NCBI RefSeq assembly: GCF_022440845.1
Contig: NZ_JAKNTO010000001.1
Location: 2,232,001-2,296,000 of the forward strand
Direction of reading: 5' to 3'
Source: Ruminococcus sp. OA3
GTDB taxonomy: Bacteria > Bacillota > Clostridia > Lachnospirales > Lachnospiraceae
DNA length: 64,000 nt
The notes below the pieces were generated by a model. It was given only the letters and a program-made list of their open reading frames with translations, did no database searches and had not been told where the DNA came from. Positions 1 to 18,151 of the stretch are shown one piece after another. The translations under genes and the position numbers were made by a program. The number at the start of each line of letters is the position of its first letter. The stretch's first letter is position 1.

Positions 1-744
1 GTGTCTGATTTTACAGGTGCAGGAAGAATGCCGATGTTGATTATTGACTGCCCCTCTGTTGTTAAAAACAGAATGATGTTTTCCGCAAGAGGAGCCGGAA
101 TTCTTGGATTTTCTATGTTTGGCTCTGATAAAGCATATGCACTAAATGATGATATGCAGTTAGACATCGAGAGTATTCAGGCGTTTCTTAAGAAACATGA
201 AGGCAAAAAGATTTTCATGTTTGGCTTTACATTTATGGTATGGCAGCATTTTTATCAAGAACTTGTACGATTGACCGATGAAGGAATTAAGTTTGATCTA
301 TCAAAGGGAATTTTGATTCATGGTGGTGGTTGGAAGAAACTTGTTAGTGAGGCGGTTACTCCAGAGGAATTCCATCAGAGGCTGAAAGATGTCTGTGGAC
401 TTAATTCAATCCACGATTATTATGGAATGGTTGAACAAACTGGATGTATCTATATGCAGTGCGAATGTGGTCATTTACACGCAAGTATCTTCTCTGATGT
501 AATTATCAGAAATCCAAAAGACTTTTCCATTTGTGAGGAAGGAGAAACAGGAATTATTCAGGTCGTATCGGCGATTCCTGAATCTTACCCAGGACATTCA
601 CTTCTGACAGAGGATGAGGGATTTATTCTTGGTGAGGATGATTGTCCTTGTGGAAGAAAAGGTAAATACTTTAAGATTTTGGGAAGACTTAGGAATGCCG
701 AGGTAAGGGGGTGTAGTGATACTTATGCAGCAAAGTTTAAATGA
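1..744 (+). CDS. LuxE-family acyl-protein synthetase (5' end outside window)
   Basis: The reading frame is open from base 1 and the GTG there is probably internal: LuxE-family proteins run to about 370 residues and only 247 are present. LuxE activates a fatty acid with ATP and hands the acyl group to LuxC. Visible signatures are the glycine-rich FSARGAGILGFSMFG stretch near residue 28, an acidic ETGIIQVVSAIPESYPGHS segment near 182, and C-terminal paired cysteines (CECGH near 154, DDCPCGRKGKYFKILGR near 213) typical of the adenylate-forming C-terminal lobe. It overlaps the next gene by 29 bases, so the two are translationally coupled. The family call rests on these motifs and the LuxC neighbour; the acyl substrate is unknown. 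Confidence 0.75.
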   Translation: MSDFTGAGRMPMLIIDCPSVVKNRMMFSARGAGILGFSMFGSDKAYALNDDMQLDIESIQAFLKKHEGKKIFMFGFTFMVWQHFYQELVRLTDEGIKFDLSKGILIHGGGWKKLVSEAVTPEEFHQRLKDVCGLNSIHDYYGMVEQTGCIYMQCECGHLHASIFSDVIIRNPKDFSICEEGETGIIQVVSAIPESYPGHSLLTEDEGFILGEDDCPCGRKGKYFKILGRLRNAEVRGCSDTYAAKFK

Positions 745-1942
745 TTTTAGCAAACTAAATATTCAGTATTCTGTTGGTAGTGGTCCCATCATGAGTGAAA
801 TGCAAAGTGCTCCGGCAAAGGTTCCATTTGCCGAGTCGGTTGTTGAATTTTTAAATGCAGTAGCAAAAGTACTTTTATCGGATAGAGAAGCAAAAAGATA
901 TCCTGATGTAGTAACACTGGGATTTTGGATGAGAAAGGCTTCTATTGAAGAGTTAAAGAAAAGATTTACCCATTCAGATAAATCTATAATGAAACTTGGA
1001 AGGGGTGTTGCTTTTCACATTGCACCATCTAATGTTCCTGTAAACTATGCGTATTCGCTTATTACTGGGCTTCTTTGCGGGAATAAAAATGTTGTACGTA
1101 TTCCATCTAAAGAGTTTGACCAGGTAAGAATAATTAATAAAGCATTCAATAAAGTCTTGACTGATATGCCAGAAATGAAACCATATATTTGTCTTGTGAA
1201 ATATGGTCATGAATCTACAATTAATGATGCTATGTCTGCAATTGCAGATGTTAGGGTTGTTTGGGGAGGAGATAACACCATTAGTGAACTTCGTAAATCT
1301 AAAATGAAACCAAGAGCAGTAGAAGTTACATTTGCAGATAGATACTCGTTAGCAGTAATCGATTCTGATGCGTATTTAACTATTGATAATAAGTCAAAGG
1401 TTGCACAGGATTTCTATAACGATACATATCTGACAGATCAAAATGCATGTACATCTTCTAGAGCTGTTGTTTGGATGGGAAGTAGGATTGTTGAAGCTAA
1501 GGAAGTGTTCTGGAACGAGCTTCATACTTTTATTGATGGCAAGTATATTATTTCAGGCGTTCAAGCAATAAATAAGCTTACTAGCGGATATATATTAGCT
1601 GCAGTAAAAGATGGTGTAAAGAAGATTATATCTAAAGATAACTTGATTATCAGAATGAGCGTGCCTGCGTTGACCGCTGATCTTATGGAACTTAAAGATA
1701 ATTCTGGTTATTTTTTTGAGTATGACTGCAGTAATATTATGGAAATCAGAGACTTTTGCAATGATACAAGATGTCAGACATTATCGTATATCGGAGATAA
1801 GGAGATTGTTAAGCCTCTTGTAATGAGTGGAATTGTTGGTATTGACAGAGTTGTACCAATGGGTAAAACCATGGACTTTGATTTAATATGGGATGGTTAT
1901 AACTTGTATGAAAGTATGACGAGAAACATCGTCTTGAAATAA
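716..1942 (+). CDS. LuxC-family acyl-CoA reductase
   Basis: A 408-residue member of the aldehyde-dehydrogenase-like LuxC family, which reduces an activated acyl group to an aldehyde with NADPH. The likely catalytic cysteine lies in TYLTDQNACTSSRAVVWMG (about residues 238-256), and the nucleotide-binding half carries GRGVAFHIAPSNVPVNYAYS near residue 92. The GTG at 716 has an AGGGGG Shine-Dalgarno five bases upstream; an ATG at 725 is the alternative. It overlaps the LuxE-like gene, which fits a two-subunit fatty-acid reductase. No luciferase genes are visible, so the aldehyde product may serve a lipid or polysaccharide tailoring step (inference). Confidence 0.8.
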   Translation: MILMQQSLNDFSKLNIQYSVGSGPIMSEMQSAPAKVPFAESVVEFLNAVAKVLLSDREAKRYPDVVTLGFWMRKASIEELKKRFTHSDKSIMKLGRGVAFHIAPSNVPVNYAYSLITGLLCGNKNVVRIPSKEFDQVRIINKAFNKVLTDMPEMKPYICLVKYGHESTINDAMSAIADVRVVWGGDNTISELRKSKMKPRAVEVTFADRYSLAVIDSDAYLTIDNKSKVAQDFYNDTYLTDQNACTSSRAVVWMGSRIVEAKEVFWNELHTFIDGKYIISGVQAINKLTSGYILAAVKDGVKKIISKDNLIIRMSVPALTADLMELKDNSGYFFEYDCSNIMEIRDFCNDTRCQTLSYIGDKEIVKPLVMSGIVGIDRVVPMGKTMDFDLIWDGYNLYESMTRNIVLK

Positions 1943-1949
1943 AGGAAAC

Positions 1950-2637
1950 CGGTTAGAAAAGAAGTAATTGTTGGAAATAGTAAAGTTACAATCATAAGAG
2001 CAGATTTTGATGATTTTCCAATAGCTTATGCCCTGCAATTCATCATATAGTAACAGAAATTGCACTGGATGATATAAATCTTAAAAAAGCTGATGGTGAA
2101 GTGATGAATATCAGACAAGGCCTGGTAATCATAGACGCCACAGATCTTTACGCAGGCGATTGCACAGACTGTACAGAGTGTGATTTAATTATTATTACTG
2201 CCGAAAGAGGTAGAAAACCGGGAGAAGCCGGATTAGATTTGAAGAAAGAAAAAGTGAAGATTACAAAAATAGTTGAAGATTTTATCAAATAATATTGTAC
2301 AAGGGATACAATACTTACAATTTCTAATCAGGTTGATATAATTACTCTTAAAGTTGATGAATGGAAGGGTTTTCTAAATGGTATGGTGTTTGAATCAGGT
2401 TATATGCATGAAATTTCTAGAGTTATTTGTTGCATTGCAGGTAATACTTAATGCTAAAGGTTAAACACATTATGGTATCCTAACCTGTGTCTGTTTGATT
2501 TCAGATGTAGTGCTGAATATGAAACCGACTATCGCATCTGTTTCTTCAAGGTTGATGGAAGAATATGATGTGAGAGGTGGATATATAGGTATCTTTATGC
2601 AGTATGAAGTGTACATAATGTTCTGGTTTCCTTAGAT
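1950..2637 (+). pseudogene. ldh: Decayed L-lactate dehydrogenase
   Basis: Pieces of an L-lactate dehydrogenase are recognisable in order across several frames. They are an N-terminal dinucleotide-binding part (IAYAL, then VTEIALDDINLKKADGEVMN), the segment YAGDCTDCTECDLIIITAERG with KPGEAGLDL (2101-2292, the only sizeable intact frame), then ILTISNQVDIITLKVDEW at about 2315-2370, and a C-terminal piece HYGILTCVC with PTIASVSSRLMEEYDVRG at about 2470-2580. Stops and frameshifts separate them, and roughly the middle third, including the catalytic His region, is missing. It cannot encode a working enzyme. The short intact frame 2101-2292 should not be annotated as a separate gene. Confidence 0.8.
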
Positions 2638-2654
2638 GAAAATGAGGAGTAGGT

Positions 2655-3005
2655 TTGGTTATGGTAAAAGGCGTAGGTGTCGATGCATGCGAAATTTCAA
2701 GAATTGAAAAAGCATTGAAGCGAAAGCATTTTAAATATTCAATCTATACGGATAATGAGATAAAAAATGAACACGGTAATGTCAATGAATACTATGCAGG
2801 GAGATTCGCATGTAAGGAGGCTGTATTCAAAGCTTTATCTGGTTTGATGAGGATTGATTTAAGAACAATAGAAACGTTAAGCCTTGAAAATGGAGCACCA
2901 GTTGTAACAATAACTGATCAGATGAAAAGAGCAGGGGTGAATATAATCAATATAAGTATTACAACTGAAGTAAATATGGCAATTGCCTTTTGTATAATAG
3001 AATAA
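2655..3005 (+). CDS. acpS: AcpS-like holo-ACP synthase (4'-phosphopantetheinyl transferase)
   Basis: A 116-residue protein of normal AcpS length. It carries the N-terminal VGVDACEISRIEKAL motif, with the Mg-binding Asp at about residue 9, and the signature YYAGRFACKEAVFKALSG around residues 45-62, where the Glu ligand and Lys sit. AcpS transfers phosphopantetheine from CoA to an acyl carrier protein. The TTG at 2655 is spaced six bases from GAGGAG; ATG 2661 is the alternative. No carrier-protein gene is visible in the window. Its place after the LuxE/LuxC pair suggests a local acyl-transfer pathway, though this could equally be the genome's housekeeping acpS. Confidence 0.8.
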   Translation: MVMVKGVGVDACEISRIEKALKRKHFKYSIYTDNEIKNEHGNVNEYYAGRFACKEAVFKALSGLMRIDLRTIETLSLENGAPVVTITDQMKRAGVNIINISITTEVNMAIAFCIIE

Positions 3006-3111
3006 TTGAATTAAGTAGTTCAAAGTATAATTTGTAGGTGCCAAGTATTAGGGCGTCTTTCTTAGTTCTCGGTTTTCTTATAAGTAACTGTAAAATAAGA
3101 GGCCTAATCTT

Positions 3112-3590
3112 ATGAACGAATTATCCCTGAAAACTCAATTGAACATTCTGAAATGGCTGGATATCATCCATCTTTGCCGGGACAGCGGACTTTCCAACTG
3201 TCGATGATGCGAAGATAATGGTATTCAACTTAAAAGCTATTACTACTGGCTTTCAGAAATTCGAAAACTGGAAATTGAAAATATTACAAGAAAATCATCT
3301 GTTTTATCAACACTGCAGTCCGCAATAATCAGCTTCAATGCCAATGGCATTTGCTGAAATTTCTATGGAAAGAAATCATTCTTACAAATTAGTTTTGATT
3401 ACAATTTATATAGGTAACGCAGTCATCGAAATTCCGGTTCCAAAGAGTCTGTTCTTCTATGCGGACGTAAATGCAACCGATTGAATGCACTGTACTGGGA
3501 AGGTGATGGATTTGTCCTTCTATTATAAATGCCTGAAAAACGATCGGTTTCAATGACCACGCTCACAAGAGGAATTCCAGCAGATTTCTG
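3112..3590 (+). pseudogene. IS66-family transposition gene remnants
   Basis: The first part, from ATG 3112, reads like the small IS66 protein with a helix-turn-helix: LKTQLNILKWLDIIHLCRDSGLSN, then a stop, then NGIQLKSYYYWLSEIRKLE. About 3440-3580, across two frames, gives a TnpB-like segment LLCGRKCNRLNALYWEGDGF followed after a frameshift by YKCLKNDRFQ, a hallmark of the IS66 accessory protein. Stops and frameshifts make it non-functional, and no tnpC transposase is present. The stretch 3006-3111 holds nothing I recognise. The remnant marks the boundary just before switch 1. Confidence 0.7.
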
Positions 3591-3614
3591 AACAAGTTTA
3601 CCGTATATGATTAC

Positions 3615-3676
3615 AAAAAGACATTTATTTTGCAACTCAGGCTCTGATGCCGGGTACACAAAATAAATGTCTTTTT
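3615..3676. terminator. Bidirectional terminator outside IR-L of switch 1
   Basis: A perfect 18-bp stem (3615-3632 with 3659-3676) starts with five A's and ends in a T-run, so it can act as an intrinsic terminator on both strands. It sits 20 bases left of the inverted repeat. In the drawn orientation it would stop the leftward transcript from the promoter at 3757-3784. The same arrangement occurs at switch 2. Confidence 0.8.
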
Positions 3677-3696
3677 TTCGTTTATCACATAAACAA

Positions 3697-3715
3697 TTCT
3701 TAGAGTAGAGTACTC
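3697..3715 (+). repeat. Switch 1 inverted repeat, left copy (IR-L1)
   Basis: A 19-bp sequence reading ttcttagagtagagtactc that is repeated exactly, in inverse orientation, at 5148-5166. Its centre is an imperfect dyad, AGAGT-N5-ACTCT, of the arm-spacer-arm type used by tyrosine recombinases. The pair flanks the recombinase gene and an outward promoter. Confidence 0.9.
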
Positions 3716-3756
3716 TAAACATGAAAATAATGTCGATTAATATACACTACTCATCT

Positions 3757-3784
3757 ATTATAACCTATTTTCAATAGATTTCAA
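3757..3784 (-). promoter_or_regulatory. Outward promoter on invertible segment 1 (drawn facing away from loaP)
   Basis: On the minus strand, TTGAAA (3784-3779) and a consensus TATAAT (3762-3757) are separated by 16 bp, giving a likely start near 3750. As drawn it fires leftward through IR-L into the terminator at 3615-3676. After inversion it would fire rightward through IR-R into loaP and operon 1. Confidence 0.78.
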
Positions 3785-3942
3785 TACTAATTTCATATAA
3801 TTGCTATCTTGGTTTTTGCAAATCCAAACAAAAACAGATCGATTTATCTAAAAACTTATTTTTATATTATGATATTCTCAATTATGATGAACAAAATAGT
3901 TGTATTCATCGTCAAATCCTAGTCAAAGAGAGGGAGAATCAT

Positions 3943-5067
3943 ATGCCGAGAAGAGGAGAAAACATTTATAAACGCAAAGATGGGAGATGGGAAGGGAGAT
4001 ACATTAGAGATTATGATTTATCCGGGAAAGCACGATACGGATATCTTTATGCTAAAACCTACATGGAAGTAAAAAGTAAGTTACATACGGTGAAATTTGA
4101 AAAAAACAAATACAAAGACCTGATAACAGAGATACGTTTCAGCGAAATGTTAGATCAGTGGTTGTTGAATATAAAGCCTCAGATTAAAGACTCTTCTTAT
4201 ATTAAATACTACAACATTATAAAAAATCACATACGTCCTGATCTGGGGAATCTTACTGTTGCAGAAATAACAAATTCTAAATTAGAGGATTATGTAAGAT
4301 ATCTGTTTGAATATGGGAAAAAGAACGGACATGGTAATATGGCTCCGAAATCTGTAAAAGATATTTTGGCAGTGGTGAAACTAGTGCAGGAGTTTGGAAT
4401 AAGAAGAAACTGTCATCTGCCGTGCCGGGTTCAGAATATCAGGATAAAGTCCGAAGTAAAGGATATTACCATCTTAAATTTGCCTGATCAAAAACGCTTG
4501 GAACGGTATCTGTTGAGCCAGGACAACCGTGTTTGCGATGGTATTTTACTAAGCCTGTATTCTGGTATACGAATCGGGGAGCTGTGTGCTCTTAGATGGG
4601 GAAATATTCTCTGTGAAGATGGTATTATTCAAATACGCTGTACGATGCAGAGGATACAATCTTTGGATGAGCCGGAAACTGCTGGACCCAGAACGAAAAT
4701 TCTGATTTCTACGCCTAAGAGTAAATGTTCAAATAGAGATATTCCGCTGCCCGATTTTTTAAAAAAACACATAAAGGATATTTCAGGTCCTGCACCAAGC
4801 TGCTTTTTTTTGACAGGCAGTGAACAATACGTAGAACCGCGTTGCATGAGTAATCAATTAAAAAATATATTAAAAATTTTAAACATTCCCGATGTAAATT
4901 TTCATGTTCTTCGGCATACTTTTGCGACAAGATGCATTGAAAATAACTTTGATATAAAAGCCTTGAGTGAAATTCTGGGACATTCCAGCGTAAATATTAC
5001 GCTGAACCGTTATGTACACACATCGTTAGAACAGAAACGCAGAAATATGAAAAAACTAAATTTATAA
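3943..5067 (+). CDS. Tyrosine recombinase (phage-integrase family), switch 1
   Basis: A 374-residue site-specific recombinase. The N-terminus (about residues 1-50, RRGENIYKRKDGRWEGRYI) looks like the AP2-like arm-binding domain of Tn916-type integrases, followed by a core-binding SAM-like domain (about 65-165) and the catalytic domain. Catalytic residues are visible: Arg in SGIRIGELCALRW, HxxR in HVLRHTFATRC, His in LGHSSVNITL and the nucleophilic Tyr in NRYVHTS near the C-terminus. A good Shine-Dalgarno (agagagggag) precedes ATG 3943. The gene lies wholly between two inverted repeats, so its job is most likely inversion of its own segment rather than integration; no excisionase or phage genes accompany it. 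Confidence 0.9.
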   Translation: MPRRGENIYKRKDGRWEGRYIRDYDLSGKARYGYLYAKTYMEVKSKLHTVKFEKNKYKDLITEIRFSEMLDQWLLNIKPQIKDSSYIKYYNIIKNHIRPDLGNLTVAEITNSKLEDYVRYLFEYGKKNGHGNMAPKSVKDILAVVKLVQEFGIRRNCHLPCRVQNIRIKSEVKDITILNLPDQKRLERYLLSQDNRVCDGILLSLYSGIRIGELCALRWGNILCEDGIIQIRCTMQRIQSLDEPETAGPRTKILISTPKSKCSNRDIPLPDFLKKHIKDISGPAPSCFFLTGSEQYVEPRCMSNQLKNILKILNIPDVNFHVLRHTFATRCIENNFDIKALSEILGHSSVNITLNRYVHTSLEQKRRNMKKLNL

Positions 5068-5100
5068 ATTTTTGTTTTCCGTCAGGAAACTGGTCAGAAC

Positions 5101-5143
5101 AGGGCCGGAAGTGCTGAGAAACTCAGTATTTCCGGCCCTTTTT
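5101..5143 (+). terminator. Intrinsic terminator after recombinase 1
   Basis: AGGGCCGGAA pairs with TTCCGGCCCT around a partly paired loop (CTGAG/CTCAG), followed by a run of T. It lies inside the invertible segment just before IR-R. As drawn it should stop recombinase transcripts from reaching loaP; after inversion it would lie at the far left end. Confidence 0.85.
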
Positions 5144-5147
5144 CTTT

Positions 5148-5166
5148 GAGTACTCTACTCTAAGAA
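5148..5166 (-). repeat. Switch 1 inverted repeat, right copy (IR-R1)
   Basis: The exact inverse complement of 3697-3715, ending 13 bases before the homologous first codon of loaP. Recombination here keeps the loaP frame: codons running through this repeat are in frame with loaP. Confidence 0.9.
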
Positions 5167-5179
5167 AGAAGGTGGCATT

Positions 5180-5686
5180 ATCTGGCTAGGTATTTCATGC
5201 CCTGAGAAAAACCAGGAGGAATATATCCGTCGTCTCAGGGAAAATATAGATCAATCGATTTTACAGGATGTATTCGTGCTTTCCTATGAATGTCTGAAAA
5301 AGTATGAAGGACAATGGCATCTGGAACGACTGCCTCTATTTCCAGGATATGTATTTCTCGAAAGCAATATGCCTAAAAAATTGATCTCATGCATAGAAAA
5401 TCATCCATATATATGTGCAGGATTGGATAGTGAAGCGGAGCTTATGGTGTTAAAACCGGAGGAAGAAGAGTTGCTGAAGAAGTTGTATGGTCCGGAACAT
5501 CATCTGGCGATGTCGAGAGGAGTCATCAGGGAAGGTATCACCTATGTGACGGAGGGTCCACTGATGGGCAGGGAAAATATGATTCGGAAAATAGACCGTC
5601 ATAAGAGAATTGCCAGGCTGGGTGAGGGAGTGTCCAATCATGAGAAGGAAATTAAGGCTGGCCTGGAGATTATTTTGAAAAGTTAA
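5180..5686 (+). CDS. loaP: LoaP-type NusG paralogue (processive antiterminator), first copy, no ATG as drawn
   Basis: A specialised NusG that lets RNA polymerase read through terminators in long operons. The NGN domain shows YEGQWHLERLPLFPGYVFLES, and the C-terminal KOW part shows VTEGPLMGRENMIRKIDRHK. From codon 5180 (ATC) to the stop it has 168 residues, exactly the length of the second copy, whose ATG-TGG start aligns with ATC-TGG here. The frame is open up to a TGA at 5147-5149 with no ATG; the first ordinary start is GTG 5276, which would remove about 32 residues including the first NGN strand. An AAGGTG Shine-Dalgarno lies five bases before 5180. After inversion an ATG would enter in frame, giving an N-terminus MFRVLYSKKEGG before IIWLG. 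It is followed 54 bases later by operon 1. Confidence 0.85.
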   Translation: MWLGISCPEKNQEEYIRRLRENIDQSILQDVFVLSYECLKKYEGQWHLERLPLFPGYVFLESNMPKKLISCIENHPYICAGLDSEAELMVLKPEEEELLKKLYGPEHHLAMSRGVIREGITYVTEGPLMGRENMIRKIDRHKRIARLGEGVSNHEKEIKAGLEIILKS

Positions 5687-5740
5687 GGAATAAAGGAATA
5701 TGCCATTAACAAATAAGGTGAAACACAAGGAGATAAACAG

Positions 5741-6994
5741 ATGAAATTTGCTGGATTTTCGGAAAAAGTTTGGCTTAGTTCACCCACTATGCACGGACCG
5801 GAGCTCAAATATGTTACGGAGGCATATGAGACGAACTGGATGTCTACGGTGGGCGCAAATATCAATGAACTGGAACGGATTGCCTGCGAAAAAACAGGAT
5901 GTAAATACAGTGTTGCGTTATCTTCAGGAACTGCTGCTCTGCATATGGCTGTGAAGCTGGCGGACGTGAAGCCGGGGGATAGGGTGTTCTGCTCGGATAT
6001 GACGTTTGACGCCACGGTCAATCCGGTGGTGTATGAGGGCGGAGTACCGATCTTTATCGATACTGAGTATGACACCTGGAACATGGATCCAAATGCTTTG
6101 GAGAAAGCATTTGAACTTTATCCGGACGTGCGAGTCGTGGTATTTGCACATCTGTACGGAACTCCCGGCAAGGTTGATGAGATCAGAGATATTTGTGCAA
6201 AACATAATGCAGTGATCATCGAAGACGCGGCGGAATCTCTGGGAGCCACATATAAAGGCGTGCAGACGGGGACATTTGGATCTTATAACGCGATCTCATT
6301 TAATGGAAATAAAATCATCACGGGATCGGCCGGCGGTATGCTGCTTACCGATGATCAGGAGGCGGCGGACAAGGTCAGGAAATGGTCCACTCAGGCGAGG
6401 GAACAGGCGCCGTGGTACCAGCATGAGGAGCTGGGTTATAACTACCGCATGAGCAATGTGATCGCGGGGGTGGTGAGGGGACAGTTTCCTTATCTGGATG
6501 AACACATCGCGCAGAAAAAGGTGATTTATGAGCGATATAAGGAAGGATTCAGAGATTTACCGGTGATGATGAATCCATTTGATGATGAAAATTCGGAGCC
6601 TAATTATTGGCTGTCCTGTCTGTTAATTATCCCGGAAGCGATGTGTAAGCAGGTGCGTGGAGAACAGGAGGTACTCTATGTGAGTGAACCCGGAAAGAGC
6701 TGCCCGACGGAGATTCTGGAAACTCTGGCGAAATATAACGCGGAGGGAAGGCCTGTATGGAAACCGATGCATATGCAGCCGATTTACAGAAGCAACGGAT
6801 TTGTCACCCGTGATGGCGATGGAAGGGCTAAGACGAATGCTTATATTGGTGGCGGGAGCGTTGGGGCTGATGGATTGCCGCTGGATGTGGGGATGGATAT
6901 TTTCCACAGGGGATTGTGTCTGCCGAGTGATAATAAGATGACGGCGGAGCAGCAGGATGTGGTGAGTGAGATTGTTAAGCGTTGTTTTGAGTAA
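5741..6994 (+). CDS. DegT/DnrJ/EryC1 sugar aminotransferase
   Basis: A 417-residue PLP-dependent nucleotide-sugar aminotransferase that converts a keto-sugar nucleotide to an amino sugar, using glutamate as usual donor. The N-terminal LSSPTMHGPELKYV, the SSGTAALHMAV phosphate-binding loop near residue 66, DAAESLGA near 162 and the Schiff-base lysine in SFNGNKIITGSAGG near 190 are all present. A clear Shine-Dalgarno (aaggagat) precedes ATG 5741. It is the first structural gene after loaP, as is an aminotransferase in operon 2. It most resembles the PglE/PseC-like 4-aminotransferases, but the sugar is not determined. Its base composition is less AT-rich than the genes that follow. Confidence 0.9.
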   Translation: MKFAGFSEKVWLSSPTMHGPELKYVTEAYETNWMSTVGANINELERIACEKTGCKYSVALSSGTAALHMAVKLADVKPGDRVFCSDMTFDATVNPVVYEGGVPIFIDTEYDTWNMDPNALEKAFELYPDVRVVVFAHLYGTPGKVDEIRDICAKHNAVIIEDAAESLGATYKGVQTGTFGSYNAISFNGNKIITGSAGGMLLTDDQEAADKVRKWSTQAREQAPWYQHEELGYNYRMSNVIAGVVRGQFPYLDEHIAQKKVIYERYKEGFRDLPVMMNPFDDENSEPNYWLSCLLIIPEAMCKQVRGEQEVLYVSEPGKSCPTEILETLAKYNAEGRPVWKPMHMQPIYRSNGFVTRDGDGRAKTNAYIGGGSVGADGLPLDVGMDIFHRGLCLPSDNKMTAEQQDVVSEIVKRCFE

Positions 6995-7015
6995 AATCCG
7001 TGTTGGAGTAATGAT

Positions 7016-7780
7016 ATGAATAAGAAAAGCGCAGCAATCGCTGCTGTTATTGGATCGGGTGTCGGAAGCGTTGCTTATCTCATTAGAAAGAACGCAAAAA
7101 ACAAACAGAAGAAAGAGCAGGAGATCTCACATAAAAAGAGCTTTTATGAAAAACACATAAAACGGTCGCAGGATTTTTGCTGCGCGTTACTTGCTGTACT
7201 TATTCTGTCACCGGTAATGGCAGTTACCGCAATGCTGGTCCGCATTAAATTAGGGTCACCGGTGATCTTCAGACAAAAGCGTCCGGGGCTGCATGGAGAA
7301 ATTTTTACCTTATATAAGTTCCGTACCATGACGGATGAGAGAGATGAAAGCGGCGAACTGCAATCGGACGAAGTCAGACTCACTTCTTTTGGAAAATGGC
7401 TCCGTTCCACATCTCTTGATGAGCTGCCGGAATTGATCAATATCCTCAAAGGCGACATGGCGGTTGTTGGTCCAAGGCCACTCTTGATAAAATATCTTCC
7501 TTATTATAATTCATTACAGGCAAGAAGGCATGAAGTAAAACCTGGATTTACTGGATATGCACAGGTGCATGGTAGAAATGCGGTTACATGGGAAGAAAAA
7601 TTTGATATGGATGTACATTATGTTGACAATATTTCTTTTTTAGGAGATTGGAAAATTATCTTTCAGACAGTGAAAACTGTGTTGAAGCGCGAAGGAATTT
7701 CATCGGCTACTTCAGCTACCATGGAAGATTTTGCAGATTATGTAAAGATAAAGCACATGAGGAATAATGTGGAGGTGTAA
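7016..7780 (+). CDS. Phosphoglycosyl transferase (WbaP/PglC-type bacterial sugar transferase)
   Basis: Starts a polysaccharide repeat unit by moving a sugar-phosphate from a nucleotide sugar to undecaprenyl phosphate at the membrane. There is a membrane hydrophobic stretch near residues 50-72, the conserved GSPVIFRQKRPGLHG and TLYKFRTMTDE around 80-105, and the catalytic-domain signature TSLDELPELINILKGDMAVVGPRPLL near 132-157. The extra N-terminus (AAIAAVIGSGVGSVAYLIRK) is a second hydrophobic segment of unclear role. At 254 residues it is slightly longer than the minimal catalytic form. It is the presumed initiating enzyme of operon 1; operon 2 has its own. Confidence 0.92.
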   Translation: MNKKSAAIAAVIGSGVGSVAYLIRKNAKNKQKKEQEISHKKSFYEKHIKRSQDFCCALLAVLILSPVMAVTAMLVRIKLGSPVIFRQKRPGLHGEIFTLYKFRTMTDERDESGELQSDEVRLTSFGKWLRSTSLDELPELINILKGDMAVVGPRPLLIKYLPYYNSLQARRHEVKPGFTGYAQVHGRNAVTWEEKFDMDVHYVDNISFLGDWKIIFQTVKTVLKREGISSATSATMEDFADYVKIKHMRNNVEV

Positions 7781-7789
7781 GGAGTAAAA

Positions 7790-9004
7790 ATGCACAAAGA
7801 AGAATCCTTGATTAGTGTAATTGTTCCAATATACAAAATTGATAGATATATTGGCAGATGTATAGAGAGCTTGATTGATCAAACATATGAAAATCTCGAA
7901 ATTATTTTGGTGGATGACGGTTCGTCCGACAGGTGTCCGGAAATATGCGATTTGTATGCTAAAAAAGATTCGCGTATAAAGGTTGTTCACAAAGAGAACG
8001 GTGGTTTAGTATCTGCCAGAAAAGCTGGTTTGGAAGCATCAACTGGAGAATATATAGGTTATGTGGATGGAGATGACTGGGTAGGTCCCGGTTTTTATGA
8101 GATGCTATATACGGAAATGATAGCATCAGAAGCGGATCTGACAGCTGCGGGGCATAGTAGGGATTTATTTGAAAAAAGCGAACATTTTTATAATTGTATT
8201 CCTGCTGGAGTCTATGAAGGCAGCCGATTAGATGATGTAAGAAAGACAATGATTTCATATAGTGATTTTTATAGACCGGGTATTATGACATATGTGTGGA
8301 ACAAGCTATTCAAACGAAACATTTTATGTGATGTACAGATGAAAGTAGACGACAGAATATCAATAGGTGAAGACGCGGCAGTGACATATCCGGCTCTTAT
8401 GAAATGTGAAAGACTCTGTATCACAGATAATGTAGCGTATCATTACCGTCAGAGAGAAGATTCCATGCTGAAACAAAATGCGGGATTTGAGACAGAGGCT
8501 CGGAAACTGAAACATTTATATGCATTTATGAGTTCTTTTGCAGCCCAGTATGATAAGGTTTATAGATTACAGGAACAGATTAATGATTATGTATTAGGAA
8601 TCTGTATTATGAGGTCTGGCGGAGGTCTTCCTGTCGATCGATGCATTGATGCTTTCTCTACATATGACAATACTTACTATGGTAAAAATGTTGTTGTTTA
8701 CAGTGCAGGTACATTTGGACAGCAGCTTGTAAATCGTTTTAAGGAGAGTAAACACTGTAATGTCATCGGTTGGATAGATGATGATTATCGGGAATACCGG
8801 CGTTGCTGTATGGATGTGGATTCGGTAGAGAGTATCACGCAGAGGTCGTTTGATTATGTTTTGATTGCAACGGTAGATAACATTGTTGGAGAAAAAATAG
8901 CAAAACGATTGCTTGATTATGGTATTTCCAGAAAAAGGATTCTCACTGTGGAATGTCCTGAAAATGAGAGAGAAGAGCTGATAAAACAGTATTTAAAGGA
9001 TTGA
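7790..9004 (+). CDS. GT2 glycosyltransferase with a C-terminal Rossmann-like extension
   Basis: A GT-A inverting glycosyltransferase. Residues 5-110 carry SVIVPIYKIDRYIGRCIESL, VDDGSSD near 42 and the DGDDW metal-binding motif near 93. Residues about 295-404 form a second module beginning KNVVVYSAGTFGQQLVNRF, a glycine-rich Rossmann-type opening, then VIGWIDDD and VLIATVDN. This resembles the nucleotide-binding half of sugar-modifying enzymes, but its function is unknown. It likely acts at the inner face of the membrane on the growing lipid-linked repeat. The stop overlaps the next start (TGATG), indicating coupling. Confidence 0.88.
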   Translation: MHKEESLISVIVPIYKIDRYIGRCIESLIDQTYENLEIILVDDGSSDRCPEICDLYAKKDSRIKVVHKENGGLVSARKAGLEASTGEYIGYVDGDDWVGPGFYEMLYTEMIASEADLTAAGHSRDLFEKSEHFYNCIPAGVYEGSRLDDVRKTMISYSDFYRPGIMTYVWNKLFKRNILCDVQMKVDDRISIGEDAAVTYPALMKCERLCITDNVAYHYRQREDSMLKQNAGFETEARKLKHLYAFMSSFAAQYDKVYRLQEQINDYVLGICIMRSGGGLPVDRCIDAFSTYDNTYYGKNVVVYSAGTFGQQLVNRFKESKHCNVIGWIDDDYREYRRCCMDVDSVESITQRSFDYVLIATVDNIVGEKIAKRLLDYGISRKRILTVECPENEREELIKQYLKD

Positions 9005-9786
9005 TGGTGAGAGAGATGAATGAATTTGCAGGAAGGATATCTGCAGCAGCTTTGGGAAAAACATGGCTTTTTTCTGTAGGACAGGCAGGATATATTGTGA
9101 AAAGCAGCAGCGGGCAGCTTTTGGGAATTGATATGTACTTAACAGACTGTGTAGAAAGAGTAGAAGGCCATATGGGATACAAAAGAATGCTTCCTAAGAT
9201 TTTATTCCCATCAGAATTGGAGTTTGATGTTATTATCACAACGCATTCACACAGAGATCATTTTGATTCTGATGCAATTCCACTATTAATGGCAAACAGA
9301 AGGACACAGTTATACGCAGCGGCAGATTGTAAAAAAGATATCCGAAGATTAGAAATGAGTGATGAAAGAATTCAGTACGTGGTATCGGGTGAAAGTTATG
9401 TGAATGGAGATTTTTCTTTGCATTTTATAAATTGCGATCACGGAGTCGATGTACCGGATGCAGTTGGTGTTGTTGTTACGGTTGATGGAAAAAAAATCCT
9501 GGAAGTGGGAGATACTTGTTTGCGGCTTGACAGAAAAGACGAGTATCTTAGTGAGGGGCCGTTTGATGTAATGATAGCTCCAATCAACGGTGCTTTTGGA
9601 AACTTAAATGAACGGGAATGTGCTCAGCTTGCGGATATTTTAAAGCCGAAGTTTTTGGTTCCATGCCATTATGGAATGTTTGCATCACACGGAGGGGATC
9701 CCGGAATGTTTTTTAACATTATGAAGGAAGAATATACACTAAACAAATTTCTGATTATGATGCAAGGAGAATGCGTTGAAATATAA
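9004..9786 (+). CDS. Metallo-beta-lactamase-fold hydrolase, UlaG-like
   Basis: About 260 residues with the metal-binding THSHRDHFDSDAI motif near residue 80, a further CDHGVDVP near 145, an Asp ligand region LEVGDTCLRLD near 168 and a late VPCHYGMF near 220. The order of ligands fits the UlaG-type branch of the MBL fold. ATG 9004 overlaps the preceding TGA by one base; ATG 9016 is an alternative. A hydrolase of this fold is uncommon in polysaccharide operons. Together with the next two genes (ATP-grasp, SDR) it may make an unusual acyl or carboxylate substituent, but the substrate cannot be read from sequence. Confidence 0.75.
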   Translation: MVREMNEFAGRISAAALGKTWLFSVGQAGYIVKSSSGQLLGIDMYLTDCVERVEGHMGYKRMLPKILFPSELEFDVIITTHSHRDHFDSDAIPLLMANRRTQLYAAADCKKDIRRLEMSDERIQYVVSGESYVNGDFSLHFINCDHGVDVPDAVGVVVTVDGKKILEVGDTCLRLDRKDEYLSEGPFDVMIAPINGAFGNLNERECAQLADILKPKFLVPCHYGMFASHGGDPGMFFNIMKEEYTLNKFLIMMQGECVEI

Positions 9787-9828
9787 GCCGTAAAATTAGA
9801 AAATATAGATTTAAAGGAGAAGAGCGGT

Positions 9829-11121
9829 ATGGATAAAGCATTTGAAGGAAAAAAACTATTAATTCTTGGAGGAAATCCGGAGACAACTCCCCTTGTGGAA
9901 ATAGCGAATAGCATGGGAATTAAAACAATCGTATCTAGTGGAAGACATACCGATCCGGCAAAAAAAGCAGCATGGAAATCCTATGATGTGGATGGAATGG
10001 ATGTTCCGGGACTGATTGCACTGGCAAGAGATGAACAGATAGATGGGGTGCTTGTAGGTGTTGCCGACGTGCTTGTCCCTTCTTATTGCAAAGTATGTAA
10101 TGCGTTGGAACTTCCATGTTATGCAACACAGCAAATTGTGGATGTGTTTGCATTTAAAGATGTATTTAAAACAACCTGTGAAAGATATGGAGTGCATGGT
10201 ATTCCGGAATATTATCTGGATCCAGAGATGAAAAGGGAGGATTTGGATAAAATCAGATATCCGGTCATGATAAAGCCGGTTGATAATGGTGGGGGTGTCG
10301 GGATGACAGTCGCATATAATGAAGCTGAACTTAAAGAGGGTGTAAAAAAGGCTCTGGATGCCTCTAACAAAAAGCGTTTTATTGTTGAAAAGTATATGCT
10401 TTGTGATGATATGGGAATGTATTATACGTTTAAGGATGGTTACTGCAGTGCTTCCTGTATTTATGACCGATATACGACAGATGAGCAGCCGGGATTGAGC
10501 CGTGTGTGCTTGGGAGGCACGTATCCTTCTAAACATCTTGATGAATACTTTTTACGTATGCATGAAAATGCAGTTCGGATGTTTAAAGAAATTGGAATTA
10601 AGAATGGCGTATTAATGCTTTCCGGATTTTATGAAAACGGAGAGTTTTACGTATATGATACAGGATTTCGTTTGCAGGGGGAAGCACCGCATCTTCTCAT
10701 GAAAGCAATTCATGGATTTGACCAGAGAGAAATGTTGATTTGTTTTGCATTGACCGGATCAGAAGGCAATATTGATCTGGAAACAGATGATATGGCCAGG
10801 CTTCGTGGTAAATGGGCAAGTACGCTATGGTTTCTGCTAAAGCAGGGAAGGATAGCTAAGATTGAAGGTCTGGACAATATCAAGGGTGACGAGAGAGTTG
10901 TGGCAAATATTCAAAGACTTTACGCAGGAGATGTCGTTGTACCAGAATGGATTGGAAACGAGAAGCAGGTATTGACCAGGATGTATCTGGTATGCGATAC
11001 GAAAGAAGAACTGGCAGAATGCTTAAAAGAGTATCAGGACAAAGTGAAAGTTTATGATGTCAACGGAAACAACATGGTCCTTAATGGTTTTGATGTAGAT
11101 ATTGCGTTGGAATTGAAGTAA
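9829..11121 (+). CDS. ATP-grasp carboxylate ligase
   Basis: A 430-residue ATP-grasp protein. The pre-ATP-grasp Rossmann-like domain starts GKKLLILGGNPETTPLVE; the ATP-binding domain spans about 120-320 with YPVMIKPVDNGGGVGM near residue 144 and the glutamate of FIVEKYML near 184. A typical C-terminal region follows. ATP-grasp enzymes couple a carboxylate, through an acyl-phosphate, to an amine or thiol. With the amino-sugar enzymes of this operon, an amide-linked substituent on an amino sugar is a reasonable inference. Shine-Dalgarno aaaggaga precedes ATG 9829. Substrates are unknown. Confidence 0.85.
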   Translation: MDKAFEGKKLLILGGNPETTPLVEIANSMGIKTIVSSGRHTDPAKKAAWKSYDVDGMDVPGLIALARDEQIDGVLVGVADVLVPSYCKVCNALELPCYATQQIVDVFAFKDVFKTTCERYGVHGIPEYYLDPEMKREDLDKIRYPVMIKPVDNGGGVGMTVAYNEAELKEGVKKALDASNKKRFIVEKYMLCDDMGMYYTFKDGYCSASCIYDRYTTDEQPGLSRVCLGGTYPSKHLDEYFLRMHENAVRMFKEIGIKNGVLMLSGFYENGEFYVYDTGFRLQGEAPHLLMKAIHGFDQREMLICFALTGSEGNIDLETDDMARLRGKWASTLWFLLKQGRIAKIEGLDNIKGDERVVANIQRLYAGDVVVPEWIGNEKQVLTRMYLVCDTKEELAECLKEYQDKVKVYDVNGNNMVLNGFDVDIALELK

Positions 11122-11143
11122 GCATAATTCATAGGGAGAAATC

Positions 11144-11914
11144 ATGGAATTGCATAGATTAAAAGACAAGGTTATTGTGATCTCAGGCGGAACAAAAGGT
11201 GTCGGAAAAACAATGGCGGAGGTTTGTGGAAGGGAAGGCGCAAAGGTTGTTATAGGCGGAAGAGACGAAAAAGCAGCAAAAGAAGCATTAAGAAATGTAA
11301 AAATTTTCGGTTCGGAAGGGATTTTTGTACATACAGATTTATTGAAGGTTGAAGATTGCATGAAGCTATTTGATAAAGCATATGAAACATATGGGAAAAT
11401 TGATGGTTTTTTTAACTATGCAGGGGTAACTCCAGTTAGTCCTTTGGATTCCTGCAGTGAGGAAACATTTGACTGGATTATGGATGTGAATTTTAAATCA
11501 TGTTTCTTCTGTTGTCAGCAGGCAATCAAATATATGAGAAAGACTGGCGGTGGTAGCATCGTTCTTACCGGTTCCGCGCATGCATGGGGAGGACAAAAAG
11601 ACAGAGCGGCATATGCGTGCTCGAAGGGTGTGTTACGTACACTAATGGAGCACATTGCTCATAATTATGCGGTAGAGCAGATAAGGTGTAATTACCTGAC
11701 GTTGGGATGGACGCCTACAGAAGGGGAGGTGGAGCTACGAAAAAGACTGGGTGAAAGTGAAGCAGAACTGCGAAAAAGAGCAGCTGCTATCCTCCCATTG
11801 GGACGTATGTGTGAAAGAAATGATTATGTAGAAGCCATTATTTATATGTTAAGTGATGCGAGTGCAATGATGACCGGAAGTACATTTAGGGTAACAGCGG
11901 GAGAGTATATCTAA
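11144..11914 (+). CDS. Short-chain dehydrogenase/reductase (FabG-like)
   Basis: A classical SDR of 256 residues. The NAD(P)-binding GGTKGVGKTMAE is near residue 15, a variant NYAG (normally NNAG) near 91, the catalytic Ser region VLTGSAHAWGG near 143 and YACSKG with the catalytic Tyr and Lys near 157. It would oxidise or reduce a hydroxyl/keto group on a small acyl or sugar substrate. It follows the MBL and ATP-grasp genes and its stop overlaps the next ATG (TAATG), so the four are co-expressed. The precise substrate is not inferable. Confidence 0.88.
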   Translation: MELHRLKDKVIVISGGTKGVGKTMAEVCGREGAKVVIGGRDEKAAKEALRNVKIFGSEGIFVHTDLLKVEDCMKLFDKAYETYGKIDGFFNYAGVTPVSPLDSCSEETFDWIMDVNFKSCFFCCQQAIKYMRKTGGGSIVLTGSAHAWGGQKDRAAYACSKGVLRTLMEHIAHNYAVEQIRCNYLTLGWTPTEGEVELRKRLGESEAELRKRAAAILPLGRMCERNDYVEAIIYMLSDASAMMTGSTFRVTAGEYI

Positions 11915-12450
11915 TGAACATAAGCAGAATGGTCAGATCAATACGTTTTTTTATGTTTTTTGATCAAATGAAAAGAGCTAATTATGCCAGAAAAAAGAAA
12001 ATATTTCATCATGTGGGAAAAAATGTACGTTTGCCTGCAATGCTTGTACCGTTACATGCAGAATTGATTTCGTTTCATAATAATATTGAAGTTGCATCGG
12101 GTGTTAAATTCGTAGTGCATGATGCCATTCACGGGGTATTGAATTTTAAATATCATGGAATTAAGGAGAGTAAAGAGTACACGGAACAGTTTGGTTGTAT
12201 TGAGATTATGGACAATGTGTTTATTGGCACAGGAACAATTATACTTGGAAATGTCAAAATAGGTTCAAATGTTGTGATAGGGGCTAATAGTCTGGTTACC
12301 AAGGACATTCCGGGAGGAACTGTTTTTGCAGGAAGTCCGGCAAAAATAATAGGAACTTTTGATGATTTAGTTGCAAAACGGAAAAGGGTCAGAAAATACA
12401 CATCTTGTGAAAAGGCATGGGAAGAATTTCAGAAAAAGTATACGGACTAA
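11914..12450 (+). CDS. Left-handed beta-helix (hexapeptide-repeat) acyltransferase
   Basis: A 178-residue protein ending in isoleucine-patch hexapeptides (VFIGTGTIILGNVKIGSNVV, then IGANSLVTKDIPGGTVFAGSPAKIIG), characteristic of CysE/NodL/MaT-type O- or N-acetyltransferases that use acetyl-CoA. The N-terminal third is basic and lacks repeats. It probably acetylates a sugar of the operon 1 repeat unit. It is coupled to the SDR gene by a one-base overlap. Confidence 0.85.
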   Translation: MNISRMVRSIRFFMFFDQMKRANYARKKKIFHHVGKNVRLPAMLVPLHAELISFHNNIEVASGVKFVVHDAIHGVLNFKYHGIKESKEYTEQFGCIEIMDNVFIGTGTIILGNVKIGSNVVIGANSLVTKDIPGGTVFAGSPAKIIGTFDDLVAKRKRVRKYTSCEKAWEEFQKKYTD

Positions 12451-12474
12451 ATTTATTAATGAGGAGAATACGAA

Positions 12475-13335
12475 ATGTCTGCGGTGGCTAATATAAATAT
12501 TCCACACCCTTATAGTGAGATGGGGGATTATGAGGAAAAATTTAGGTTAAAAGAAACGCATGATGAAATGCTAGAATTATTGCTTATCTTTGATACATTT
12601 TGCAGAAAAAATAAAATTTATTATTCTCTTGCTGATGGGACTCTGTTAGGAGCTTTCAGACATGGGGATTTTATTCCTTGGGATGACGATGCAGATGTAA
12701 TGGTAACTCGAGGGGAATATGATAAAATTCGTAAAGCGATACAACAAGATTCCTCAGTGCGCTTATTAAAGATTCATTTTTTAGATCGGATTACCGCACC
12801 AGGATTTGATATTAAAAAGGTGTACATTGATTTGTTCATCAATGAAGATATGCCTAAAAGTTCTATTGTATTTATGTGGAAAAAGTTTAAGACGCAATTT
12901 CTACGTATATACTTTAATAATAGTAATGTTAGAAATGTCAGGCATGATAAGTTCAACAGATTCTATAGAATATTACGACAAATTGCGGAATCGGTGTTAA
13001 GAGTGATTGCAATACTTGTGATTGGAAAGCGAGATGTTTTTGAATTAAATGATAAGACTGTAGCCATTAAGAGTCATCAATCATCAGGACTGTATACTAG
13101 ATATACATCTAGGATGTATGAAACAAGTAGAAGATTTAATATTGAAAGTTATAACTCCGGATATGTAGATGTACTTTTTCGTGGTGAAAGGTTAATGGCA
13201 ATTAAGAATGCCCATACATTTCTAAAAGAAATGTATGGAGACTACAATAAGTTATTGCCAGAGGGAAAAAGAAAGCCGGAGCATCCTGTTAATATGATGG
13301 ATTCTCCAGATAGTTGTATAAAGTGGTACAACTAG
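12475..13335 (+). CDS. LicD-family phosphotransferase
   Basis: A 286-residue LicD protein. The defining motif IYYSLADGTLLGAFRHGDFIP continues into WDDDADVMV around residues 43-74, with the metal-binding aspartates. LicD enzymes of the nucleotidyltransferase fold move phosphocholine or related phospho-groups from CDP-activated donors to sugars. The TagD homologue three genes on can make CDP-glycerol, so a phosphoglycerol-type decoration is an attractive inference. No choline kinase or uptake gene is present in the window. Shine-Dalgarno gaggag precedes ATG 12475. Confidence 0.9.
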   Translation: MSAVANINIPHPYSEMGDYEEKFRLKETHDEMLELLLIFDTFCRKNKIYYSLADGTLLGAFRHGDFIPWDDDADVMVTRGEYDKIRKAIQQDSSVRLLKIHFLDRITAPGFDIKKVYIDLFINEDMPKSSIVFMWKKFKTQFLRIYFNNSNVRNVRHDKFNRFYRILRQIAESVLRVIAILVIGKRDVFELNDKTVAIKSHQSSGLYTRYTSRMYETSRRFNIESYNSGYVDVLFRGERLMAIKNAHTFLKEMYGDYNKLLPEGKRKPEHPVNMMDSPDSCIKWYN

Positions 13336-13347
13336 AGAGACTAGACT

Positions 13348-14202
13348 ATGAATTTATTAAAGATAAAAGATACATATCAGTATGCTATGCACGGAAATGG
13401 TGCATATAAAGGACTTCGACAGACGAATACAGAAGATGCATTGATCTATTGGTACCGAAAAGGTGTCCGGATTTTTGAGATTGATATGGCTAAGACGTCT
13501 GATAGTGAGTATGTAGCTGTGGCCCATCATCTTAACAAAAAAGATTTGCGAAGGTTGGAAATTTTTGATTTGCCAGAGAATTGTACTTCTAAATGGTTTA
13601 TGGGACACAAGTTATTTTCAATATCTACAAAAGGATTAAAGCCATTATCTATGGGACTTATTATTGAGTTGTTAATTAAATATAACGATATGATTGTGAT
13701 GCTGGATTTGTTTGGGCTCTTTACGAGTGAAGAGACAGCTATGTTTGTAGAAAATTTATCGCAATATATTGGCAATAATGTGGAAATCTGGGATAGACTT
13801 TTGATTGAATCGTATAACAAGGAAATGGTCATGGGCATTCAAAATGTGACGGCGAGGGCCAATATTATAGCATGTGTGCGATTTGAGAAGAATGAGGATG
13901 ATAAGACTACAATAACACCTCAGGAGTTGTTGGAAAAAAATATTCGGTTTATTTCTTATCCTTGGTACTGTACATTAAAGCATCCCGGGGAGATAGAAAA
14001 TTTTTCAAAAAATGGAATAACAGTTTTCTCAAGGACAAAAGATAACACGCTTGATATGAGACTGAAAAGAGCAGGTGTGAGTGTCAACATTATTGCTCAG
14101 AGGTATGATGGTGGCAGGATTATATACCAGTATCCACTTTATATGATGTCTTATCTTAAAAGAATATTTATAAAAGTGTATATCAAATTAAGGTATCGTT
14201 GA
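13348..14202 (+). CDS. Glycerophosphodiester phosphodiesterase-like protein
   Basis: A 284-residue protein of the PI-PLC/GDPD TIM-barrel type. The opening reads YAMHGNGAYKGLRQTNTEDAL (where classical enzymes have HRG...PENT), then GVRIFEIDMAKTSD with the Glu-x-Asp metal site near residue 47 and VAVAHH with the second histidine near 60. The departure from HRG makes the exact activity uncertain. It may cleave or transfer glycerophosphate groups. It sits between licD and tagD homologues, which supports a role in a phosphoglycerol side group. Confidence 0.7.
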   Translation: MNLLKIKDTYQYAMHGNGAYKGLRQTNTEDALIYWYRKGVRIFEIDMAKTSDSEYVAVAHHLNKKDLRRLEIFDLPENCTSKWFMGHKLFSISTKGLKPLSMGLIIELLIKYNDMIVMLDLFGLFTSEETAMFVENLSQYIGNNVEIWDRLLIESYNKEMVMGIQNVTARANIIACVRFEKNEDDKTTITPQELLEKNIRFISYPWYCTLKHPGEIENFSKNGITVFSRTKDNTLDMRLKRAGVSVNIIAQRYDGGRIIYQYPLYMMSYLKRIFIKVYIKLRYR

Positions 14203-14239
14203 TATTTAAATGTATAGAAGTGAGTAAGAGGAGTTTAAA

Positions 14240-15307
14240 ATGATGGATTTTTGCTTTGTTGTGCCGGTATATAAGGTACCATATGATTTGCTTCAAAATT
14301 GTATAGACAGTATTATCGGACAGACGCATAAAAATATTGAGCTTATTCTTGTTGATGATGGTTCACCTGATGATTGTGGGAAACTGTGCGATGAAAATGC
14401 TCTAAAGGATGAACGGATAAAAGTGATCCACAAAAAGAACGGTGGTTTATCTGATGCTAGAAATGCGGGAACGAAAGCATGCCAGTCTAAATGGATTACT
14501 TATGTAGATGGCGATGATTGGGTAGATAAAAACTTCGCAGAATCTTTTTTGAGAAGAATTGAAAGCCAAAAAGAACTAGCGGATTTTTATATTTATAATG
14601 GATATAGAAATTATGCGCAGCAGCAGGTTGCCTGTACTCCCTATTATGAGGATGGAAAAAGATTCGTTTCCTATGCAGAACGTGAGGAATTGCAGAAAGA
14701 GTGCTGTCTTGTTCCAACTCGTAACAATGGTGATCAGCTTTTTATTGGCTCCGGATGGGCAAAGGTATTTGATATAGATTTTATACGTTTAAATGATCTT
14801 TATTTTACTATTGTTCCATATGGTGAAGATAGTATTTATTTTTTATACGCAGTAGAACAAGCCGACATAGTTGAATATGTTTCACGGCCAGTATATCATT
14901 ACCGCGATACAGAAGGAGGTATGGTTAACGGGTTTAGAAAAAATGCTGACTATGAACAGGATATATATGTTAAAGAGATATTTCAGTTTGCTAAAAAACA
15001 TCAAAAAAAGGAATCATTTATAGATACTCTGTATTTAAGGGTATTTATAGCAATGCAAAGATGTGTAAGTCAGAAATTCTTTAATGACAAGAATCCGGAT
15101 GGGCTATTTAAACGGTGGAAAGATAATATAGATTTCTTTAAAAAATCACCATATAAAGACATATACAGGCATATTAAGTCTGGCGACTTAAACAGAAATA
15201 GTAAGATTAAATTTTGGCTGTTGAGATTTAAGCTTTATGGTCTTATGAACTTTTCAAGAAATATATATAACAGGAAGCATGGGAAAAAAATGTGTGAGAG
15301 GAAGTAA
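14240..15307 (+). CDS. GT2 family glycosyltransferase
   Basis: A 355-residue GT-A glycosyltransferase. The nucleotide-sugar-binding N-terminus reads FVVPVYKVPYDLLQNCIDSI, VDDGSPDD lies near residue 38 and the DGDDW metal motif near 92. The C-terminal third is variable and basic, consistent with peripheral membrane association. It adds one sugar to the operon 1 repeat unit; donor and linkage are not predictable. Shine-Dalgarno aagaggag precedes ATG 14240. Confidence 0.9.
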   Translation: MMDFCFVVPVYKVPYDLLQNCIDSIIGQTHKNIELILVDDGSPDDCGKLCDENALKDERIKVIHKKNGGLSDARNAGTKACQSKWITYVDGDDWVDKNFAESFLRRIESQKELADFYIYNGYRNYAQQQVACTPYYEDGKRFVSYAEREELQKECCLVPTRNNGDQLFIGSGWAKVFDIDFIRLNDLYFTIVPYGEDSIYFLYAVEQADIVEYVSRPVYHYRDTEGGMVNGFRKNADYEQDIYVKEIFQFAKKHQKKESFIDTLYLRVFIAMQRCVSQKFFNDKNPDGLFKRWKDNIDFFKKSPYKDIYRHIKSGDLNRNSKIKFWLLRFKLYGLMNFSRNIYNRKHGKKMCERK

Positions 15308-15313
15308 AATAAT

Positions 15314-15721: not shown

Positions 15722-15765
15722 TATTATTTATAGAGAATTAAGATGATATTGAGGAGATAATTTAT

Positions 15766-15813
15766 ATGCACAATAGGAATGTATTAGACGGGTATTTAGG
15801 AGTACAGGAATGA
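15766..15813 (+). CDS. Possible 15-codon ORF coupled to the polymerase gene
   Basis: ATG 15766 preceded by a GAGGAG Shine-Dalgarno opens a 15-residue frame (MHNRNVLDGYLGVQE) whose TGA overlaps the polymerase ATG (ATGA at 15810-15813). This is a classic layout for translational coupling. It may be a decayed gene end or a coupling leader; there is no other support. Confidence 0.3.
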   Translation: MHNRNVLDGYLGVQE

Positions 15814-18117: not shown

Positions 18118-18151
18118 TGGGCAATATACAAACGAATGTAGGAGTACTGCT

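Follow-up and report, generated by a model that had tools for sequence, protein, structure and literature searches.

A probable self-contained invertible promoter element with its own tyrosine recombinase precedes a LoaP-like gene and a polysaccharide cluster in Ruminococcus sp. OA3

A large polysaccharide biosynthesis cluster in the genome of Ruminococcus sp. OA3 (G000) is preceded by a gene for a LoaP-like NusG paralogue, and immediately upstream of that gene lies a recombinase gene enclosed by inverted repeats. We asked whether this arrangement, here termed switch 1, acts as an on/off switch for the cluster, and in which position it stands in the assembly. All positions refer to the window, the whole stretch of 64,000 nucleotides that was analysed. 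Switch 1 is a 1470-bp segment between two 19-bp inverted repeats (Table 1). As a reading made from the sequence alone had claimed, the repeats at 3697–3715 and 5148–5166 are exact reverse complements over 19 nt, and we found their sequence at these two places only in the 4.06-Mb genome when up to three mismatches were allowed. The match extended to 22 nt at 95% identity (3697–3718 and 5145–5166), and the longest exact inverted repeat obtained by chance in 60 dinucleotide shuffles of 2500–7000 was 14 nt. Each site is itself near-palindromic, the left one being TTAGAGTA GAG TACTCTAA, and beyond the 19 nt the two are not fully identical, the outer half reading TCAAAG on the right and TCTAAA on the left. 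The interior holds the recombinase gene, a minus-strand outward promoter, a possible recombinase promoter and a terminator; an Rfam scan of 2600–7000 gave no match. Taken with the comparisons below, this layout indicates that switch 1 is very probably a phase-variation module in the form of a self-contained invertible promoter element.

Table 1. Features of switch 1, its target and switch 2 in the window (G000, the genome of the window; G002, a second species of the genus; a dot marks a feature without assigned strand)
Feature	Position	Strand	Details
Hairpin outside left repeat	3615–3676	.	Perfect 18-bp stem flanked by A/T runs; T runs on each strand
Left inverted repeat, putative recombination site	3697–3715	+	TTCTTAGAGTAGAGTACTC; identical in G002
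ATG in loaP frame after inversion, rival start	3720–3722	-	In-silico inversion; no Shine-Dalgarno sequence
Outward promoter TTGAAA-16-TATAAT	3757–3784	-	11/12 consensus matches; expected start site near 3750
Possible recombinase promoter TTTATA-16-TATGAT	3861–3888	+	Consensus match only
Tyrosine recombinase, 374 aa, intact, inside segment	3943–5067	+	Pfam Phage_integrase and SAM-like N-terminal domain
Predicted intrinsic terminator between recombinase and right repeat	5101–5139	+	18-pair stem, T tail; kept in G002
Right inverted repeat, putative recombination site	5148–5166	-	
Shine-Dalgarno-like stretch before loaP	5169–5176	+	Contains GAAGGTGG; outside the putatively invertible segment; identical in G002
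loaP-like NusG paralogue	5180–5686 (frame 5177–5683)	+	Pfam NusG; likely start ATC at 5180
Polysaccharide biosynthesis cluster	5741–20796	+	LegC-type aminotransferase, sugar-1-phosphate transferase, glycosyltransferases, Wzy-like, flippase-like
Hairpin outside left repeat of switch 2	about 21434–21495		Similar to switch 1 hairpin
28-bp perfect inverted repeats of switch 2	about 21535–21562 and 22690–22717		
Recombinase of switch 2	21672–22697		Last codons within right repeat

The recombinase that the same reading had placed between the repeats proved to be intact and to carry a Phage_integrase domain, with a score of 75.5 bits against a curated cut-off of 27.1, and it belongs to the tyrosine and not the serine class. 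Its translation contains the RxxH-type motif HVLRH and, towards the C-terminus, LGHSSVNITLNRYVH. When 36 related recombinase loci from many genera of Lachnospiraceae were surveyed, mostly at 36–49% identity, flanking inverted repeats with a repeat score of at least 17 were present in 24. Flanking repeats were looked for and not found at L019, L024, L025 and eight to nine other loci, so not every relative of the recombinase is a switch. A peptide-pattern search of the genome contigs for further recombinases returned one distant relative only. At both ends of each element, the 110 nt next to the repeat on its inner side were scored for an outward promoter, with a threshold of 10.5 points. Promoters of at least this score occurred at the recombinase 5′ end in 20 of the 24 repeat-bounded loci and at the opposite end in 0 of 24; the 24 include the two near-identical switch 1 orthologues, and their targets on the other side vary. 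Of all the evidence, this asymmetry argues most strongly that the promoter is a working component of the element. Elements of this family precede homologous large open reading frames of about 440–450 aa ('...KTVHQYSKGTVSAGDMEKL...') in three genomes (L034, L046 and L051), a repeated target. A third recombinase of G000 lies between 23-bp repeats (96%) at L004 (G000:C1:2422399-2426508) and is followed by a small 75-aa open reading frame.

At switch 1 itself, the minus-strand TTGAAA-16-TATAAT described earlier just inside the left repeat was confirmed at 3784–3757, pointing away from loaP. An equal promoter score was reached in 2 of 100 shuffles of the left end. A general promoter scan of the region showed no significant excess over shuffles (4 found, 7.3 expected), so it is the conserved position across many elements that argues for this promoter. 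The strong terminator reported inside the right end was recovered as the 18-pair stem at 5101–5139, with −34.5 kcal/mol and z −8.7. Two things had been missed in the sequence-only reading, namely the start-codon problem of loaP, discussed below, and the hairpin outside the left repeat, which had z values of −6.4 and −7.5 on its two strands and a stem that is kept in G002. This hairpin is likely to be a terminator or insulator in both directions, and an outward transcript from the 3784–3757 promoter could be stopped by it. In-silico inversion of 3697–5166 placed the promoter upstream of loaP, at a distance of 76 nt from the conserved W codon, and left the recombinase reading away. The earlier proposal that the assembly shows the OFF state was supported by the promoter direction, the terminator and this inversion, and it holds because, as assembled, only read-through past the terminator could transcribe loaP from the segment.

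The target protein scored 120.2 bits against the NCBIfam LoaP model NF033641 and was termed LoaP-like because the curated cut-off is 125 bits; with 137.3 bits, a close relative at G129:C24 exceeds it. The polysaccharide cluster behind it is presumed, from its position, to be under switch 1 control. In an 81-row tree of LoaP-like proteins, which contained no true NusG outgroup, both loaPs of the window and relatives from other genera formed a 13-member clade with support of 100/95 among these rows. We found that a repeat-bounded element ending at most 150 nt from the start preceded 13 of 13 loaPs in the clade versus 3 of 69 rows outside, a few of which had short upstream sequence (Fisher test, 2e-12, calculated with 63 negatives instead of 66 and slightly conservative). 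In the closest relatives, from other genera, these upstream elements were 237–438 bp long, carried no recombinase and were bounded by sites such as TTTCGTAGAGTA...TACTCTACGAAA. When the better promoter on either strand was taken in ten recombinase-free elements, it pointed toward loaP in three (L056, L057 and L061) and away from it in six (L055, L058, L059, L060, L062 and L063), with L054 undecided. An order-wide search with the clade alignment added only two further genomes. Outside the main clade, LoaP-type genes with upstream repeat-bounded elements of 424, 451 and 1431 bp were observed at L110, L112 and L122, respectively, the last element containing a recombinase. G000 also has a third LoaP-type gene about 16 kb before the window, L098 (G000:C1:2215645-2216142), with a GTG start and a score above the curated cut-off; no flanking inverted repeats were found there.

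Evidence on inversion came from the second species. The whole switch 1 arrangement is present in G002 at 96% nucleotide identity over 7.4 kb, and its orientation, repeats and hairpins are all the same as in G000; an inverted switch 1 was looked for in these two genomes, the two that carry it, and none was seen, both being OFF. A sister element with a recombinase of the same family, L005 (G000:C1:228834-232934), has its orthologous site in G002 at L022 (G002:C1:1437500-1444500). L005 1387–2803 aligned in reverse to L022 3747–2341, at 82.5% and repeat to repeat, and the flanks aligned forward (473–1418 with 1428–2372, and 2775–3712 with 3719–4749). The alignments show in-place inversion of a same-family element in this genus since the species split. 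The earlier claim of an invertible switch is in agreement with all comparisons, that is, the sister inversion, the promoter position and the occurrence of both orientations at related loaPs, whereas at the locus itself it meets two genomes that are both OFF. L005/L022 is a fourth element, and its target side encodes a protein of 159–166 aa (MNKENIVLDNSNTYKAADAMI...).

As assembled, the loaP frame of switch 1 contains no ATG, GTG or TTG before 5276 and is closed upstream by a TGA at 5147. The start Met of LoaPs directly precedes a conserved Trp, and ATG occupies that place in 53 of 82 rows. We found ATC (7) or ATT (1) there at eight loci, namely in the switch 1 loaP, in that of the G002 orthologue and in six related genes of two other genera, and all eight have a Shine-Dalgarno sequence 4–9 nt upstream. 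Since L054, L060 and L063 have no in-frame ATG, GTG or TTG upstream in either orientation, loaP of switch 1 probably starts at AUC 5180, outside the segment. Three changes were needed to place the ATC/ATT label on the LoaP tree, so this start would have arisen twice or been partly reversed.

A flip that supplies the start codon together with the promoter was at one time the main hypothesis, and it was demoted by the related loaPs that combine ATC or ATT with a Shine-Dalgarno sequence. Under it, the ON form would make LoaP with a 14-residue N-terminal extension (MFRVLYSKKEGGIIWLGI...) and the OFF form would be untranslatable. The TGA that closes the assembled frame and the in-frame ATG that appears after in-silico inversion in both G000 and G002 speak for such a coding inversion, but the ATG at 3722–3720 lacks a Shine-Dalgarno sequence, and an open frame with an ATG over so short a stretch is not improbable by chance. 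Furthermore, L054, L060 and L063 keep the Ile start codon and a good Shine-Dalgarno sequence, indicating that the clade can dispense with an ATG from the element. We regard this alternative as unlikely, and an element-supplied ATG is conceivable for switch 1 and its G002 orthologue only.

We also considered that the element once inverted and is now locked OFF, with loaP decaying for want of a normal start codon. Such a relic could account for the single orientation shared by G000 and G002, for the missing ATG, GTG or TTG before 5276 in the present orientation and for the finding that 8 of the 15 amino-acid changes in loaP between the species fall in codons 7–22. It is nevertheless very improbable, given that the comparison of G000 with G002 gave dN 0.018, dS 0.26 and dN/dS of about 0.07 for the recombinase, and dN 0.042, dS 0.173 and dN/dS of about 0.24 for loaP. 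Neither gene has a frameshift or stop, the regulatory DNA is nearly identical between the species (about 4 of 240 non-coding positions differ in about 3700–3942), and the AUC/AUU start in six further loaPs from two other genera is not explained by decay of the switch 1 copy. A loaP pseudogene without a start was ruled out by the dN/dS values and by the related ATC/ATT loaPs with Shine-Dalgarno sequences.

A third alternative, in which the segment is no regulatory switch but a small mobile element that has integrated, with an integrase for recombinase and attachment sites for repeats, is hardly credible. In its favour, a transposon-type Int protein and XerA are among the best solved relatives of the recombinase, further relatives at up to 44% identity occur on phage-derived contigs, and repeat-bounded elements of like kind sit at different target genes in many genomes. 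Against it, inverted repeats such as those of switch 1 give inversion rather than excision under standard tyrosine-recombinase logic, the segment carries only recombinase, promoter and terminator, its position upstream of loaP matches that of the recombinase-free, 237–438-bp repeat-bounded promoters in relatives, and the sister element was inverted in place. At some earlier time the segment may have spread as a mobile unit.

Collectively, these data favour the self-contained invertible promoter element, for which we infer inversion at switch 1, action of the recombinase on the switch 1 repeats, ON/OFF transcription and antitermination by the LoaP-like protein. The recombinase, encoded within the segment, would recombine the two near-palindromic repeats and turn the 1470 bp round. 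In the OFF state the outward promoter would fire left, away from loaP, into the hairpin terminator, and the terminator that follows the recombinase gene would end its transcript short of the right repeat; because the promoter faces away and the recombinase transcript stops there, no transcript for loaP would be made. In the ON state the promoter would sit immediately before the right junction and drive transcription of loaP together with the polysaccharide genes that follow, and the LoaP-like protein would then help RNA polymerase to traverse the long operon. LoaP translation would most probably begin at the AUC behind the Shine-Dalgarno sequence.

The genes infC and sigR are the type cases of an IF3-regulated non-standard start. 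IF3 represses the GTC start of Streptomyces sigR, where the effect was measured; like loaP of switch 1, sigR encodes a regulator with a conserved non-standard start, GTC in sigR versus ATC/ATT in loaP (PMC5472188). By analogy, IF3 may discriminate against the AUC/AUU start of LoaP. We tentatively suggest, as a possibility held at somewhat below even chances, that the clade is doubly gated by an invertible promoter, with the recombinase inside in switches 1 and 2 and recombinase-free elsewhere, and by a conserved AUC/AUU start disfavoured by IF3, so that a weakly made regulator would control a whole polysaccharide cluster.

Switch 2 (window 21434–23238) precedes the second loaP, which has an ATG at 22732, and then a second polysaccharide cluster. 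It is also OFF as assembled, its TTGCAT-17-TATAAT promoter facing left. Broken transposase-like fragments flank both switches (window 3100–3560 and 20960–21300; L021 4000–4452). The left flank of switch 1 differs between G000 and G002, and in G002 it holds what we take to be the end of an IS66-like transposase. Upstream of switch 1 on the same strand, window 1–3005 encodes LuxE-like and LuxC-like proteins (acyl-protein synthetase and acyl-CoA reductase) and a phosphopantetheinyl transferase; this set of genes is an unusual neighbour for a polysaccharide locus. A surface-type protein with long PTKEPEATETPE repeats is encoded at 59506–61344.

Several parts of this arrangement are already known, namely invertible promoters before a NusG-like antiterminator in Bacteroides, a recombinase inside the segment in Hin and Providencia, and tyrosine-linked invertons in Clostridia. 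The Hin switch of Salmonella has its recombinase gene within the invertible segment (PMC5903667). Like this flagellar switch, switch 1 combines a recombinase and an outward promoter in one segment between short inverted repeats, beside an operon that would be turned on and off; Hin is a serine recombinase, whereas switch 1 has a tyrosine recombinase, an antiterminator and polysaccharide target and putative insulating terminators on both sides. In the fimbrial inversion signature of Providencia stuartii the recombinase lies inside an 844-bp segment with 14-bp imperfect repeats (PMC5903667). By its description, that element resembles switch 1 in enclosing a recombinase in a phase-variable segment beside surface genes, but it belongs to a different phylum, has imperfect repeats and concerns fimbriae. 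In Bacteroides, an invertible promoter drives the NusG-like antiterminator UpxY, which heads a capsular polysaccharide operon (PMC11892184), and in B. fragilis the serine recombinase Mpi, which is encoded separately, carries out the capsule promoter inversions (PMC5903667). The logic of antiterminator and polysaccharide is common to both systems, although the UpxY invertible promoters are promoter-only elements and switch 1 carries its own recombinase.

Within Clostridia, the invertons of group 139, linked to tyrosine invertases of group 35, were shown by read mapping to change orientation in culture (PMC11892184). They share with switch 1 an associated tyrosine recombinase, which lies near them; their own interior measures about 200 bp, and LoaP is absent from the main text of that survey (PMC11892184). 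The Cdi switches of Clostridioides difficile likewise represent tyrosine-recombinase promoter inversion in Clostridia, but their recombinase RecV, unlike that of switch 1, acts in trans on several promoter-only elements (PMC5903667). LoaP of Bacillus velezensis is a NusG paralogue, as is the switch 1 protein, which scores just under the curated LoaP cut-off; loaP genes are often beside polysaccharide operons, and no inversion is mentioned in that account (PMC12691694). A search of openly accessible papers returned no account of an invertible loaP or of a loaP with an AUC start.

A conserved Ile-codon start such as the AUC/AUU of LoaP would be rare among regulatory proteins, and automatic annotation would truncate or miss such regulators; here the first listed start is the internal GTG at 5276. 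The presence of solo, promoter-only forms and self-contained forms in one LoaP clade offers a test of recombinase gain or loss. If the proposed reading is true, gut-type Gram-positive bacteria would phase-vary whole polysaccharide clusters via a NusG-like antiterminator, in parallel to UpxY in Bacteroides, and switch 1 would be an unrelated, self-contained tyrosine-recombinase route to that end.
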